Source of the DNA: Candidatus Latescibacterota bacterium
GTDB taxonomy: Bacteria; Latescibacterota; UBA2968
NCBI GenBank assembly: GCA_022821275.1
Contig: JAJEDY010000087.1
Span: 1 to 64,000 of the forward strand
Direction: 5' to 3'
DNA length: 64,000 bases
The notes below the pieces were generated by a model. The model saw nothing but the letters and a program-made list of their open reading frames with translations, was not told the origin of the DNA and did not search any database. Positions 54,105-59,896 of the stretch are shown here, in pieces; the stretch's first letter is position 1, and each line of letters opens with the position of its first letter. Made by a program: the position numbers and the translations under genes.

Positions 54105-54806
54105 ATGATGATCCCCCTCAAAGACGAACACCCCTCGGGAAGCGTGCCCATATTGATGATCGGCATTTTGCTGACCAATGTGGGCATCTATGTGTACGCG
54201 TGGTTATTGGGCGACATCGGATTTCATGTATTCACCGCGCGATATGGGGCAATCCCCTTTGAAATAATGCAAAGCACCGACGCAATCTCTCCCACACCCA
54301 TCCCACTATATCTCACGCTATTATCGTCGATGTTTATGCACGGCGGCATATTACATCTGGGCGGCAACATGCTGTATTTGTGGATATTTGGGAACAATAT
54401 AGAAGCCGCACTGGGGCATGCGCGGTTCTTGTTCTTCTATCTATTTTGCGGCGTGATCGCAACACTATCACATGTGATATCCGAACCGGAATCCACCATA
54501 CCAATGGTGGGCGCCAGCGGCGCAATAGCGGGAATATTGGGAGGCTATCTGGCGGCATTTCCCGGCGCGCGGATTCTGGTACTCGTATTTTATTTCATCC
54601 TTCGCATACCAGCACTAATCGTACTCGGTGGATGGTTTGTCATTCAATTGCTCAACGCCTCAAATGCCAGCAGCGCAAGCGACGTCGCGTGGTTCGCCCA
54701 CATAGCCGGATTTGTCGTGGGCTATGTGCTCATGCGCCAATGGAAGAACAAAATCCCGGTCAAAAGAATATATGAGCAGTGGGAGATTGAAAGCGAATCA
54801 GGATGA
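54105..54806 (+). CDS. Rhomboid-family intramembrane serine protease
   Basis: A 233-residue six-helix protease. Catalytic Ser138 is in GASGAIAG and His199 in WFAHIAGF. HLGGNMLYLWIFGNNIE is the conserved N-containing loop-helix. It follows the M23 gene with almost no gap and shares its promoter. The substrate is unknown. Confidence 0.93.
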   Translation: MMIPLKDEHPSGSVPILMIGILLTNVGIYVYAWLLGDIGFHVFTARYGAIPFEIMQSTDAISPTPIPLYLTLLSSMFMHGGILHLGGNMLYLWIFGNNIEAALGHARFLFFYLFCGVIATLSHVISEPESTIPMVGASGAIAGILGGYLAAFPGARILVLVFYFILRIPALIVLGGWFVIQLLNASNASSASDVAWFAHIAGFVVGYVLMRQWKNKIPVKRIYEQWEIESESG

Positions 54807-54827
54807 TCGGGATATTTCTCAGGAAAA

Positions 54828-54850
54828 AAAAAAGAGGCGTGCTCTTTTTT
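54828..54850 (+). terminator. Rho-independent terminator
   Basis: Stem AAAAAAGAG (54828-54836) with CTCTTTTTT (54842-54850) and loop GCGTG. An alternative GGCGTG/CACGCC stem overlaps it. It ends the M23-rhomboid transcript. Confidence 0.75.
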
Positions 54851-54883
54851 GAGACACGCCACTCGTCGTAATATTTGGATTCA

Positions 54884-54981
54884 ATTGTCGTATCAGTGAT
54901 ACGACAATCTCGGATTGCCAAACGCTTCAATCAATTGTCTCTACACTGTGGAGACAATAGTTGCGACAATGTAGCAACTAT
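54884..54981. repeat. Cluster of three 25-bp dyads with identical geometry
   Basis: Three inverted repeats of 25 bp lie at 54884-54908, 54934-54958 and 54957-54981. The outer arms are ATTGTCGT/ACGACAAT, ATTGTCTC/GAGACAAT and ATAGTTGC/GCAACTAT. Each has one base or near-pair inside (A-T, T-G, G-A), then a 3-bp inner stem (TCA/TGA, ACA/TGT, ACA/TGT) and a single central base. The sequences differ but the complementarity is kept. The cluster lies between convergent genes, past the terminator. No T run follows, so these are not ordinary terminators. Function unknown. Confidence 0.85.
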
Positions 54982-54991
54982 TTCTCCGGAA

Positions 54992-57508
54992 TCACTCATC
55001 CAGCCCTGCCTCTTGCAGAGCACCCAGCAAATAGGGCACCCCAAAAAACAGCAAACTCAAATACATAGGACTCAGCCCCACGGCACCGCGTTTTTTGGGA
55101 TCGTCGCTCCAATCCTGCGACCGGGCCAACCGGGCCAGCAGATGCCGTCCCACCTCCAAATATCCCTGTTCACCCGTCAGTCGGTACGCATAGCCCAAAT
55201 GGCGACACAGCACCCCGCCGTAGCGCTGTTTCCACGCCATCTCGGCATCGAAAACTTCGGGACCGCCACAAAACCAATCCACCGCGCGCCGGTAGCACTG
55301 GGCCACATCGTCCCGTCCGGTCAACCGGTGCAACAACTCGAGTCCAACCATTAAATAATGCGTCTGGTAGCCCTTTTGCTCGGCATAGGGCAACACCTGC
55401 GTACCGCCAGCAGAAGAACCGCCCAGCGCACGGCGCTCAGCCGGGGTAAAAGGCGCGGCAGTGCCCATCTCCACAGACAGGGTCGTACCTTCGGTCGCCA
55501 TGCTGTAGGGACCCTGGTCGGGCAACCGGTCAGGAGTAGAAACCTGGAAGCGCTTATGCCAACTGCCATCGTCGTTTTGGCCTCGGGCAATAACCTCAAA
55601 AACTTCTTCGGCACGCTGTTTGAAACGCGCCTCGCCCGTTAATTCCCACAAGTACAGGAGACCGCGCAAGGCATTGGCAATACTGCGCAGACTAAAGGAA
55701 AAACGGGGATCTTCGCTCCAGCGGTAACGCAGAAAAAACTCCCCAGCTTCCCCGAGCACCTCCAGCGTCCGCAGATCGCCCGTCAAATAGTAGTAATCGA
55801 TCCAATTATCGATAAAGGTATGCGACGCACAAGGCTCGTCGCCAAAATGGTCAATACTGTGGCGGAAACAGCCACCCACCATATAGGGTCTGAGGGGATG
55901 GTAGTGGCAGGTATCGACATCCATCGAATGTCGGGTCATAGCCTCGCCCAGGCGGAACCAGCGCCCATCACCGCTGCGGGCGTACTGGATCCACACCCCG
56001 TGGCGCGGATCCCACTCGCTGTTGCACCAGCCCCAGCGCCCGCGAAAACGCCAGTCACCGGTCGATTCCTCCCAGGCCACCAGCACATCGCCCCAGTCAA
56101 AAAAACCGTACCAGCGATTGACCTCAATGCTACGTGCCATCCAGTCGAGAAAGCCATCGAGCATCCGCTCGGACCGCGGAAAAACGGCTGAATTGAGCGG
56201 AGCAAAACCGCCTGTGACCTCGCAGTGCGCCATCCACAGAGGATCGACCGCCACCTGCGGCCAATTGAGTAACGCCTGCAACCGCGCCTCTTCACCACTT
56301 GCACTGCGAAAATAATCGATGAAAAACTCCGACGTCTTGGCCGTCCCCAGGCCATCGCTGTACACCCCTTCCCCCTCGTGCCATGCCACGTCCTCGGCAT
56401 AGCGCCTGAAATCCAACCGCCCGCCATCGGGATCTTTCCACAAAAACACATCAATGCCACCCCCATCTACGCCCAGAGCCTTGGGGTACTCCTCGACAAT
56501 ATGGCGCAAAGCCACCCCGACCCCGGCCTCCTCGCCCGCCAGCACCGCCCAGCCGCCAGCCCGTTCGCCCTCTGCCACCACCTCCGAGCGCCCACCGCGC
56601 CGCCGCGCCAGGCGAAAATGGCGATCCTGGCGCTGAGCCAGCAGCAGACCCTCATCCGCGTCCAAAACGCCGGTCATGGGTCGATTCCCTCCCACCTGGT
56701 AGCACCGTTTTCCATCCCCATCCAATGGGATCCGCACGGCCAGTTCTCGCAATTCGGTCTGCCCCGGGTCGCAGGCCACCACGATCGTGTGCAACACCCG
56801 CAAAAAGGTGTGCCCGGCAAAAGCATAGATCCGCGTCACCAGACGGAAGGGCTGGTACCCGCCATAATGGTGCATAGGAGCCTCGGCCTGTAGGGCACCC
56901 TCGCAGCGAATCACCGCCCGCAAGGGACCGGCTTCCTCCACCTCAACGCGGTACGCCTCATCCCCCAGCGACGCCCGGCATACCCCGCCCATACCGTATA
57001 TCCGCCGCTGGGTCTCCCTCCCCTCAAAAGCCTCGCAAATATCCGCCCAGCTATCGCCCCCCTGAGACGCCACGGCGACCTCCTCGACAAAATCGCCCGC
57101 TTCCTGCCGCCCCAACCCCACCGCTTGCACCAGGCCGTAGCACTGCTTGCTCACCGCAAAGCGCAAGGGACCGGTACTCACCACCAAACACGCATCATCC
57201 TCGCTTATTTGCAGCCGAACCGCCGGAGGCGCATCGCGCCTCTCGCCACCGCAGCACAGGTAGTAAACCGCCTGTCCAGCCGCGGGCACATCGGCCTGAA
57301 AATCGACCAGAACCCACTTGATACTGCCGTCGGGCCACCGGCTCATGGGACGGCTCTGCAGGGACACGCCCTGGCCCTGAGCATCCGCCAACCACAAAGC
57401 CTCCGGCTCAGCCGCAACACCTCGCGGCAGGGGCACACCCCGGGTCACCGGCCAGGCTCTGCGCTCAAAACCGACTTCTTCTTGCACCGTCAAAGCGATG
57501 CGTTGCAT
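54992..57508 (-). CDS. PcRGLX-like (PL26-type) polysaccharide lyase candidate
   Basis: An 838-residue protein with no signal peptide visible. It opens with FERRAWPVTRGVPLPRGVAA, typical of the RIFT-barrel first domain of the exo-rhamnogalacturonan lyase family (PcRGLX), followed by a beta-sandwich region and a C-terminal (alpha/alpha) toroid-like part (SIDHFGDEPCASHTFIDNWI, RFSFSLRSIANALRGLLYLW). The gene is clearly more GC-rich than its neighbours, which may indicate transfer. ATG 57508 was chosen with GAGGAGG ten bases upstream. Lyase activity is inferred from the family. Confidence 0.68.
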   Translation of the reverse strand: MQRIALTVQEEVGFERRAWPVTRGVPLPRGVAAEPEALWLADAQGQGVSLQSRPMSRWPDGSIKWVLVDFQADVPAAGQAVYYLCCGGERRDAPPAVRLQISEDDACLVVSTGPLRFAVSKQCYGLVQAVGLGRQEAGDFVEEVAVASQGGDSWADICEAFEGRETQRRIYGMGGVCRASLGDEAYRVEVEEAGPLRAVIRCEGALQAEAPMHHYGGYQPFRLVTRIYAFAGHTFLRVLHTIVVACDPGQTELRELAVRIPLDGDGKRCYQVGGNRPMTGVLDADEGLLLAQRQDRHFRLARRRGGRSEVVAEGERAGGWAVLAGEEAGVGVALRHIVEEYPKALGVDGGGIDVFLWKDPDGGRLDFRRYAEDVAWHEGEGVYSDGLGTAKTSEFFIDYFRSASGEEARLQALLNWPQVAVDPLWMAHCEVTGGFAPLNSAVFPRSERMLDGFLDWMARSIEVNRWYGFFDWGDVLVAWEESTGDWRFRGRWGWCNSEWDPRHGVWIQYARSGDGRWFRLGEAMTRHSMDVDTCHYHPLRPYMVGGCFRHSIDHFGDEPCASHTFIDNWIDYYYLTGDLRTLEVLGEAGEFFLRYRWSEDPRFSFSLRSIANALRGLLYLWELTGEARFKQRAEEVFEVIARGQNDDGSWHKRFQVSTPDRLPDQGPYSMATEGTTLSVEMGTAAPFTPAERRALGGSSAGGTQVLPYAEQKGYQTHYLMVGLELLHRLTGRDDVAQCYRRAVDWFCGGPEVFDAEMAWKQRYGGVLCRHLGYAYRLTGEQGYLEVGRHLLARLARSQDWSDDPKKRGAVGLSPMYLSLLFFGVPYLLGALQEAGLDE

Positions 57509-57523
57509 GTCTCTCAAACCTCC

Positions 57524-59896
57524 TCAATATGGCATCACAGATTTCATACTATCTGTTTCTTCGGGTACGATTCCGGATTTCCATCTGTCTATAAGCCTGC
57601 GTATATCTTCGGGATTTTCAAGCCGCGGACCAAGGCGGAGCAGATTCTCAAGCGAAGAGACAGCACGGGTTATATCACCCGACTCGTAAAAATAGAGAGC
57701 CAGAGCGCGATAATGTTCGCCAACAAATTGCCATGTCTCCGGAAAATCGAGCGCGTAGGGAGGCACGCGTTTTTCGACCTCCACGAGAACATCATAAGCC
57801 TCTTCGTGCATACCCATTCGAATGTACGCGCGGACAAGGCCATCAAAAAGAATCAAATAATTGCCGAGCAGGCGACGCGCAACCGGGTCTTTGTGAACCG
57901 TACTATCCGCAACGCCGGTGTACCGATAGACCTCGAGCAAATTGCGCCTGATCTTTTCTTCTTCAAACTGCTCGTATCCCCGGGTCCTGACCAGCTTATA
58001 CGCCATACCCTCCATAGACAAATAGGGCTTCAAACCCGCCATATTGATATCGGGCACAGTCACGGCAAAATAAATGGGCCGCTTTTCCCAGTTGTCTCTC
58101 ACAACGCGCCATATCATCAAAGTATGGGGTTCCAGAACGGGCACCGTCTCTCTGCCTCTGCCCGTGGGATACCCGACGATGGGAAGATCCCCCGCCTCGA
58201 GTTTAAGACCTGCTATTTCCACGCTTCTGTCGTAATCCCAGGGGAGTGCCCCAAGCCAATCTTCAATCTCATCATCCTCGAGACCCACTTCAACACCGAG
58301 CCTCTTCAATTGTTTAATATACCACGAGGTCTTAATCAGACTGAGATTGACAATTTGAATATCCGTTCGCACGCCCTCAACGCCCTGCAAAAACCACAGA
58401 GGATACGTATCGTTATCCCCATTGGTAAACAAAATGGCATTCGGCTCACAGGTTGCCATAATATTATACGCATAATCATAGGGCACAAAATCACCCGTGC
58501 GATCGTGCGCGTGATAATTCTTGACCAGAATACCCGATGGCACCAGAAGCATGAGAGCCGCCGCCAGAATCGCCAGCGACTTGTTTTGCATCCAGGCAAT
58601 AACACCCGCTGCACCAATACCCATCCATATACCGAAAAATGTATAAGCCCCCACAAAAATATATTCGCGCTCGCGGGGTTCTGGATCGGGCATATTGAGA
58701 TAGAGCACGAGACCCATGCCCATCAGGGCAAACATGGCAAAAAGGGAAGCAAAGCGTTTCCAATCCTTACGCAGATGATACACGGCACCGCCAATACCGA
58801 GCGCGAGTGTGATCAGAGAATATTGAATGATCTGATATCGGCTCATATAAACATCTACGGCGCGGCGAAAAGATGCGGAAATACCATCAAAAAAAGGAAA
58901 CTGCTGAAGAAAATATTTGACGTGAATATTAAACTGAAAAGCCCAGGGTTCGGCGCGGCGAGGAAAAACAAGATGCGTACCGTATTGCTGACGCCCCATA
59001 AATGCTTTGAAATTTTCCCAGGTCTCGGGATCGTTCATATCGATCATGGGATTGAGACCCGACCGAATAAAAAGGGCGAAGTACGTGGAAAAACCCAGCG
59101 CACCGATAACAATTCCCAAAAGCCAGAATTGGGGATTGCGCCACGCAGGTCTCAAAATGAGCAACCCGATGATAATAGCACCCGTCAGAAGTGCAGCAAC
59201 CGAGAGGGGAAAAACAATCGACAAAAACGGATAGAGAGTCAGCCCCACGACCACGAGCACCTGATGCTGGAGTGGCCGATCTTCCATCAAATCGGTAAAA
59301 AGCAGAATGAGAATACCGGGAATGGTGAGCAAGCACTGGAGATGTACACCTGCGCCGAGTCCAAAAAGATAGGCAATGAACAACAAGAGACGATCGCTAT
59401 TGTGGTCTTTGTGCGCGTCATCCCAGCGCAGAGCCACCCACACCGCCAGCATAGTAATACACATCGACAGACCATAAACCTCGGCTTCGATGGCATTATT
59501 CCAAAAAGAAAAAGAAAAAGCCGTGCTAAGAGAAGCAACCACACCACCGACAAGGATAGCGACTTGTTGGATGGTATTTTCGCGGTCCAACCATGTGGAG
59601 AGCAAACGAACAGTACACAAATAGATGAGAACAACTGTGGCAATGCCAGCAGCAGCCGACAGGAGATTCACGCGAAAAGCGATTTCTCCAAAAGGCAACA
59701 TGGAAAAGATACGCCCCAGCAAAGTATAGAACGGCGCGCCGGGGGGATGGGGAATGCCAAGAGTATAAGCAGTGGTAATAAACTCGCCACAGTCCCAAAA
59801 TGCAACAGTAGGTGCCAATGTCGAGAGATAAATAACAGTCGTGACAAAAAATACCAGACCAGCGACGATCTTGTTGCGCTGTCCAAATTCGTTCAT
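57524..59896 (-). CDS. DUF2723/TMEM260-like membrane glycosyltransferase (GT117)
   Basis: A 790-residue protein with about 12 membrane helices in its first two thirds and a soluble C-terminal region with TPR-like helices. The signature LAPTVAFWDCGEFITTAYTLG, then HPPGAPFYTLLGRIF, identifies DUF2723, the family of human TMEM260, an O-mannosyltransferase. The Asp in FWDCGEF is the catalytic candidate. It would glycosylate envelope proteins at the outer face of the inner membrane. It lies between the small repeat protein and the lyase-like gene on one strand. Confidence 0.88.
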   Translation of the reverse strand: MNEFGQRNKIVAGLVFFVTTVIYLSTLAPTVAFWDCGEFITTAYTLGIPHPPGAPFYTLLGRIFSMLPFGEIAFRVNLLSAAAGIATVVLIYLCTVRLLSTWLDRENTIQQVAILVGGVVASLSTAFSFSFWNNAIEAEVYGLSMCITMLAVWVALRWDDAHKDHNSDRLLLFIAYLFGLGAGVHLQCLLTIPGILILLFTDLMEDRPLQHQVLVVVGLTLYPFLSIVFPLSVAALLTGAIIIGLLILRPAWRNPQFWLLGIVIGALGFSTYFALFIRSGLNPMIDMNDPETWENFKAFMGRQQYGTHLVFPRRAEPWAFQFNIHVKYFLQQFPFFDGISASFRRAVDVYMSRYQIIQYSLITLALGIGGAVYHLRKDWKRFASLFAMFALMGMGLVLYLNMPDPEPREREYIFVGAYTFFGIWMGIGAAGVIAWMQNKSLAILAAALMLLVPSGILVKNYHAHDRTGDFVPYDYAYNIMATCEPNAILFTNGDNDTYPLWFLQGVEGVRTDIQIVNLSLIKTSWYIKQLKRLGVEVGLEDDEIEDWLGALPWDYDRSVEIAGLKLEAGDLPIVGYPTGRGRETVPVLEPHTLMIWRVVRDNWEKRPIYFAVTVPDINMAGLKPYLSMEGMAYKLVRTRGYEQFEEEKIRRNLLEVYRYTGVADSTVHKDPVARRLLGNYLILFDGLVRAYIRMGMHEEAYDVLVEVEKRVPPYALDFPETWQFVGEHYRALALYFYESGDITRAVSSLENLLRLGPRLENPEDIRRLIDRWKSGIVPEETDSMKSVMPY

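Follow-up and report, generated by a model that had tools for sequence, protein, structure and literature searches.

Three 25-bp palindromes stand side by side at positions 54,884 to 54,981 of a 64,000-nucleotide stretch of DNA from a Candidatus Latescibacterota bacterium (the whole stretch is hereafter the window), and they raise the question of whether they form an element in their own right or are part of something else. A preliminary description did not take them for parts of a gene, suggested that structure rather than sequence was kept, and proposed checks for a small RNA and for a linked transposase or hairpin-end recombinase.

Here, we trace the dyads to the coding sequence of a nuclease family, YhcG/DUF1016, and find the same palindromes in intact members of that family. 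Our overall explanation, to which we give a probability of roughly 0.8, is that the dyads are relics of yhcG, that intact yhcG genes carry such palindromes as features of their DNA, and that these would have a role in cis as folded DNA.

Three dyads between convergent genes

All 12 pairs of the first dyad, D1 (54884..54908, minus strand; ATTGTCGTATCA-G-TGATACGACAAT), are complementary. D2 (54934..54958, minus strand; ATTGTCTC-T-ACA-C-TGT-G-GAGACAAT) and D3 (54957..54981, minus strand; ATAGTTGC-G-ACA-A-TGT-A-GCAACTAT) each form 11/12, with T.G and G.A as the respective odd pairs, and overlap by 2 bp as originally described. The triplet is real: Markov shuffles give 2.3 sites per 64-kb window at ≥10/12 pairs and 0.10 at ≥11/12, a triplet within 98 bp arose in 0 of 40 such shuffles, and a scan of the window returned only one further 25-mer with at least 10/12 pairs. 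Folding of the dyad stretch gives z = −5.5. The dyads do share a shape, as was claimed, but their sequences are less independent than they had seemed, since all three fit the consensus AT[T/A]GTY...RACaAT with the centre C-[A/G]-N-T-G.

The dyads lie beyond a terminator-like hairpin (54827..54861) that follows a rhomboid-family gene (54105..54806, plus strand), the left marker of the locus, whose orthologues in the genus are 83–93% identical. The GC-rich gene on their other side (54992..57517), before which they had been placed, runs on the minus strand, which puts the dyads between two convergent genes. It is PcRGLX/GH127-like (Pfam PF21346, PF21345, PF19501, PF07944), is inserted between the dyads and a TMEM260-like mannosyltransferase gene (57524..59896, minus strand; PF11028, E=3e-55) that serves as the right marker, and occurs at this locus in the window genome only, being absent from the congener stretches examined. 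The earlier judgement that the dyads do not look like terminators, attC sites or CRISPR repeats stands. Their stems are AT-ended and lack a T run, which rules out an intrinsic terminator, the terminator-like hairpin at 54827–54861 being separate.

The 8-1-3-1-3-1-8 pattern, searched for as covariance models, led to the same spacer in related genomes and to nothing else at home: the dyad model found no copy in the window's own genome beyond the window's dyads, and the feature is thus not a dispersed one in this genome. The simpler pattern TTGTC-N-GACAA occurs 72 times in that genome against 58 in the control, a difference that carries no information. A REP-, RPE- or MITE-like dispersed repeat was dropped as a candidate after genome searches without many dispersed copies.

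The dyads are homologous to codons of YhcG/DUF1016 genes

Read on the minus strand, D3 encodes GEIVATLSQ, D2 IVSTV*RQLIEAFG and D1 EIVVSLIRQL. The translation of D2 matches the motif 1 sequences, of the IVSTLSRQLVEEFG type, of intact YhcG/DUF1016 genes; the spacer between D1 and D2 (54909..54933, minus strand), which encodes IEAFGNP after motif 1, derives from the same gene relic. D3 corresponds to motif 2 of the family and D1 to a palindromic coding segment of the same kind. The succession of motif 2, motif 1 and motif 2′, with its frameshifts, marks a rearranged pseudogene relic. In a sister species (G006), the counterpart of D2 reads IVSTPSR*LVEEFG and that of D3 GEEIVATLSQQL; in another (G007), D1 runs on into LRWIH, equivalent to the DUF1016 motif 'LSWSHF'. 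With DUF1016 proteins as queries, tblastn recovers matching pieces from the locus in G004 (E=1.6e-6), G007 (E=0.004) and G006 (E=0.03).

At the same rhomboid/TMEM260 spacer, a further congener (G010) has two dyads, both lying within one open frame of the minus strand, GKEIVSTLSRQLTSEFGRGY...EGEIVATLSQQLGWSHF, and D3 of the window has the same codons. Pfam assigns DUF1016_N and YhcG_C domains to this gene (L078, 8262–9074); about 65 residues are missing between the two domains relative to its relatives, and it may already be impaired. Because the gene at this spacer holds two dyads in frame, those of the window are very probably non-coding remains of one or more YhcG/DUF1016 genes that once stood here, a point that the preliminary description missed. 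A binding site for a palindromic regulator of the NtrC type was abandoned as a candidate when G010 showed the dyads to be coding.

The codons of DUF1016_N motifs 1 and 2 are present in the window by minus-strand reading, sister loci and tblastn, the stretches that identify D1 and D2 being short and broken by frameshifts and stops. Neither DUF1016_N nor YhcG_C is intact in the window, which retains only about 100 bp, interrupted by stops and frameshifts. The window's genome lacks an intact yhcG and keeps no more than a weak fragment, so the relics cannot be under maintenance there now. A decayed gene, here of a family listed by PADLOC as the defence candidate PDC-S02, can thus leave structured scars that resemble new elements.

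The locus in related species

With the rhomboid gene as query we located the spacer in related genomes. In most other congeners the TMEM260-like gene follows the rhomboid gene directly, and in some a region with dyads or cargo lies between them. All three dyads are kept in G006, the terminator-like hairpin is common to G006 and G007, D1 is identical at 24–25 of 25 positions in the two sister species, and 23–24 of the 25 bases between D1 and D2 are the same there. The arms of D2 and D3 show compensating changes among the three species, including a G-C to A-T change at pair 4/22 of D2 between the window's genome and G007. Across six genomes of the genus, matches to the covariance model fall at the rhomboid/TMEM260 spacer, G010, G002 and G004 included; the single further match, in G009, is weak, lies elsewhere and looks unrelated.

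In the complete genome G007 the order is terminator, a first D1, 1.93 kb with three small open reading frames (ORFs), a second D1, D2 and D3. Its two D1 copies have a 32-bp core in common, and the single D1 of the window joins the left flank of one to the right flank of the other; the window therefore represents the deleted (or not yet inserted) state. Dyad relics also flank 1.6–1.9 kb on both sides in G002 and G004. The G007 segment (L062, 7099–8805) encodes a 333-amino-acid proteasome-fold protein (PF00227) and two small unassigned ORFs. The 8.5-kb spacer of G002 (L079, 5020–13600) has a 1279-amino-acid ORF and another with an Rpn-like repetitive tail, and this spacer has the look of a hot spot for insertions. 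In G016 (L022), which belongs to another family, a 23-bp palindrome with the same outer arms, AATTGTCGCATTTTGCGACAATT, lies about 165–187 bp after the rhomboid match and behind the rhomboid terminator, possibly an older relic or a chance occurrence.

These arrangements invite the reading that the dyads act like folded attC-type sites at which DNA enters and leaves. The recombined single copy in the window and the flanking relics of G002 and G004 would fit it, as would an E. coli B-type junction that falls at a palindrome end. Yet no recombinase was seen at the locus, R′/R″ core sites and a cassette series are lacking, and reading of the sister stretches turned up neither an integron integrase nor a series of cassettes. 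The same observations follow from ordinary deletion between direct repeats, and we regard a recombination site as quite unlikely. The transposase or hairpin-end recombinase first suggested was not found either. The protein linked to the dyads is instead a predicted PD-(D/E)XK nuclease of the Holliday-junction-resolvase type.

A palindrome at fixed codons of intact yhcG genes

We sampled 80 DUF1016 genes from GTDB species genomes and scored the 63, from many phyla, whose W[ST]H residues allowed motif 2 to be anchored. At the same codons, 53/63 genes have a motif 2 palindrome with ≥10/12 pairs, 18 of them perfect; examples are ATTGTCTCGACACTGTCGAGACAAT (IVSTLSRQL), ATTGTGCAGACACTGTCTGCACAAT (IVQTLSAQL), ATTGTCTCCGCACTGCGGAGACAAT (IVSALRRQL) and ATTTGCTCGACGCTGTCGAGCAAAT (ICSTLSSKL). 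Motif 1 lies exactly 36 codons (108 bp) upstream and is palindromic in about two thirds. The form is constant, a 25-bp palindrome of ATT, a variable arm, a CRNYG centre, the complementary arm and AAT, and its conservation extends from bacteria to archaea (Methanosarcina) and phages, with copies in a Salmonella phage record and in Wolbachia phage WO. Among DUF1016 genes of the class, L094, L095 and L100 have a third palindromic site farther downstream, such as AAAGTCTCAGCAGTGCTGAGACAAT (KVSAVLRQL).

An independent set chosen by Pfam domain only gave P≤0.007 for 14/30 genes, with encoded sequences as varied as ILQTVSAES, ILPTPLAKL and FVQQLAGQL. Several divergent DUF1016 clades in this set lack the palindrome, which is thus not needed for the domain as such.

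Could the protein alone account for this, the residues IVxTLSxQL merely happening to yield a palindrome? Both motifs do fall in predicted helices (residues 45–63 and 85–92) of an N-terminal domain that the model makes all-helical. Synonymous shuffling within each gene, however, gives about 5/12 pairs against the 10–12 observed (P≤0.001 for most genes), the encoded amino acids co-vary so that the arms stay complementary, and non-coding copies stay perfect. Protein constraint alone is refuted by the synonymous shuffles, unless codon usage there is special for another reason, and we give it practically no weight. The DNA is conserved beyond what the protein accounts for. Among 62 distinct copies there are 127 cells of double compensating change compared with 40.5 in shuffles, an excess that falls off sharply when the partners are slid by one position. 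The claim that structure rather than sequence is kept therefore holds far beyond the window, and we consider it highly probable, from these comparisons of sequence, that the palindrome is maintained at the level of DNA in intact genes.

Pairing rules point to DNA

A palindrome in a transcribed gene might be kept as an mRNA hairpin, one that regulates translation, stability or RNA cleavage of the yhcG transcript by autoregulation. The strand folds well as RNA, and the innermost pair, 12/14, is G.U in 33/104 windows, with C.U and U.U avoided. We examined third codon positions in 104 palindromic windows chosen for ≥8 pairs, a choice that raises the Watson–Crick count (711 pairs against 319 expected) and favours no mismatch type. 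Outside positions 9 and 12 (summed over positions 3, 6, 15, 18, 21 and 24), G.U/G.T mismatches number 6 against 92 expected and A.C mismatches 9 against 88. RNA should tolerate the former, whereas the stem excludes both equally, and the pattern at position 12 amounts to a purine preference beside the centre. This equal exclusion in the outer pairs points to DNA, rather than mRNA, as the conserved object, and leaves an mRNA hairpin improbable. The small-RNA reading of the preliminary description loses ground for the same reason, the conserved stem being intolerant of G.U pairs. A structured RNA element was also set aside as a candidate: G.U-tolerant covariation was absent outside the innermost pair, and an Rfam scan of the window gave no match.

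Palindromes in and beside E. coli yhcG

The yhcG gene of E. coli K-12 contains three palindromes 39 bp apart, encoding IHQTMSGEL, IPQTPSAEF and IWQTLSAKS, and a perfect non-coding palindrome lies 16 bp past its stop codon. This outer copy reads ATTCTGCAGACAGTGTCTGCAGAAT in K-12 and ATTCTCCAGACACTGTCTGGAGAAT in RM14516, GMF065 and F374, the two forms differing by a double change from G-C to C-G and by the base at the centre. In RM14516 and F374, where the flanks are unchanged, one complementary pair and the centre are thus the only differences. The second in-gene copy of ES7 and 2020N21 also differs by a complementary pair. Copy number varies within the species: the gene has a single copy in O157, two different copies in another lineage, and in O111 a single copy with a frameshift. 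In a widespread allele the match to K-12 stops precisely where palindrome 3 ends, and the replacement DNA of this allele occurs in 722 genomes. Extragenic palindromes 15–56 bp past the yhcG stop codon, as in E. coli, are also seen in Endozoicomonas and in a Desulfobacteraceae metagenome-assembled genome (L195, 2535–2600; L196, 2536–2560).

Copies in and just outside genes, in tandem in E. coli and variable in number, would fit a mobile palindrome, of the RPE, REP or MITE kind, that inserted in frame into yhcG genes and into the spacer of the window. Against such an element, an alignment (A4) shows that the palindromes at motifs 1 and 2 replace existing codons without insertion, no empty sites with target duplication were seen among the alleles here, and genome-wide searches revealed no dispersal away from yhcG loci. 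In 19 named genomes we counted 0–7 dyads per genome (both strands), mainly on the contigs that carry yhcG, with an extra match elsewhere in some. We hold a mobile element to be improbable too.

How the arms stay matched is a separate question, and its main rival answer is purely mutational: quasi-palindrome correction by template switching would perfect a chance inverted repeat without any function. Both arms do change together within E. coli while their flanks do not, and within one gene the arms of motif 1 are more like those of motif 2 than permutation predicts (10.6 of 14 positions alike against 8.7, P<0.0002). Such correction should, however, perfect palindromes in many genes, whereas the 123 palindromic sites at yhcG loci, against 17 in shuffles, lie nearly all at the motifs, and the remainder, in flanks and neighbour genes, is at about chance level. 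Nor does correction alone explain why the ATT/AAT ends and the C-R-N-Y-G centre are fixed, even in non-coding copies. We judge it unlikely, and continue to favour palindromes kept as folded DNA.

A possible role for the YhcG nuclease

The conserved object would then most likely be DNA folded in cis, as a hairpin or a cruciform. Such a fold could be a substrate or a docking site for YhcG itself, which PMC1189080 describes, by prediction, as a Holliday-junction-resolvase-like PD-(D/E)XK protein. According to PMC2672614, deletion of yhcG is synthetically lethal with alleles of dnaB, dnaN and parE. Given that prediction and the synthetic lethality with replication alleles, the simplest guess is that YhcG acts on its own palindromes, and we treat this as a possibility that falls short of an even chance. 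A PDB sequence search with DUF1016 proteins gave no match of note, and a fold search gave only weak nuclease-like and weak ParB/Noc matches (E ~0.1), too weak to name a fold.

Cleavage by YhcG followed by fold-back repair or copying might make both arms change together, spread copies within and beside the gene, and let palindromes outlive the gene as scars. We suggest, tentatively and as somewhat doubtful, that the palindromes in and beside yhcG fold into hairpins or cruciforms and that these are the DNA on which its product, a candidate phage-defence nuclease, acts; the gene would then have a structural address for self-control, for self-recognition or for spread by cleavage and fold-back repair. 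If so, E. coli K-12 has a cis nuclease–hairpin system, one that would have been overlooked because it lies inside coding sequence. The palindromes offer a testable substrate for YhcG, a listed defence candidate present in that strain, and they account for the hypervariable 'xxQTxSxE' stretches and the copy-number alleles of YhcG proteins as features of DNA rather than of protein.

Comparison with known systems

DNA hairpins that are read as structure, beside the gene of an enzyme, are known from REPtrons (RAYT/TnpA-REP with REP hairpins) and from integron attC sites. The yhcG palindromes likewise adjoin a gene whose enzyme product might act on them, but that product is a PD-(D/E)XK nuclease rather than an HUH transposase or a tyrosine recombinase, and the hairpins lie inside the gene and are not dispersed.

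Within the YhcG/DUF1016 family (PF17761 and PF06250, COG4804, PDC-S02), the dyads are parts of the genes themselves, and the genus keeps members, one of them at this locus, whereas the window holds relics only. We found no mention of in-gene palindromes in the passages on the family in open-access papers, PMC1189080 included, a result that does not prove absence; nor did the open-access searches yield an earlier report of a DNA palindrome feature of yhcG genes, those of E. coli included.

A palindrome kept in coding DNA against the encoded protein is almost never seen, and three known cases come near it. Rickettsia palindromic elements also occur both within protein-coding genes and in spacers, but they are insertions of about 100–150 nt dispersed over unrelated genes (PMC4316617), and yhcG motifs 1 and 2 show neither insertion nor dispersal. 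The coding palindromes of Nematomorpha mitochondria, up to 284 bp long with both arms coding for conserved regions (PMC6649704), are inverted repeats kept in coding sequence together with protein function, as in yhcG, but they are longer, belong to mitochondrial genes and have no nuclease link. PARCELs (palindromic amphipathic repeat coding elements) share with the yhcG feature dyad symmetry in coding DNA, variable sequence, horizontal spread and the possibility of tandem copies; they are, however, tandem repeats of 25 residues (75 bp) found in membrane proteins and in ORFs of no assigned function (PMC2996958), whereas the yhcG palindrome spans 25 bp and is tied to fixed codons in a single nuclease family.
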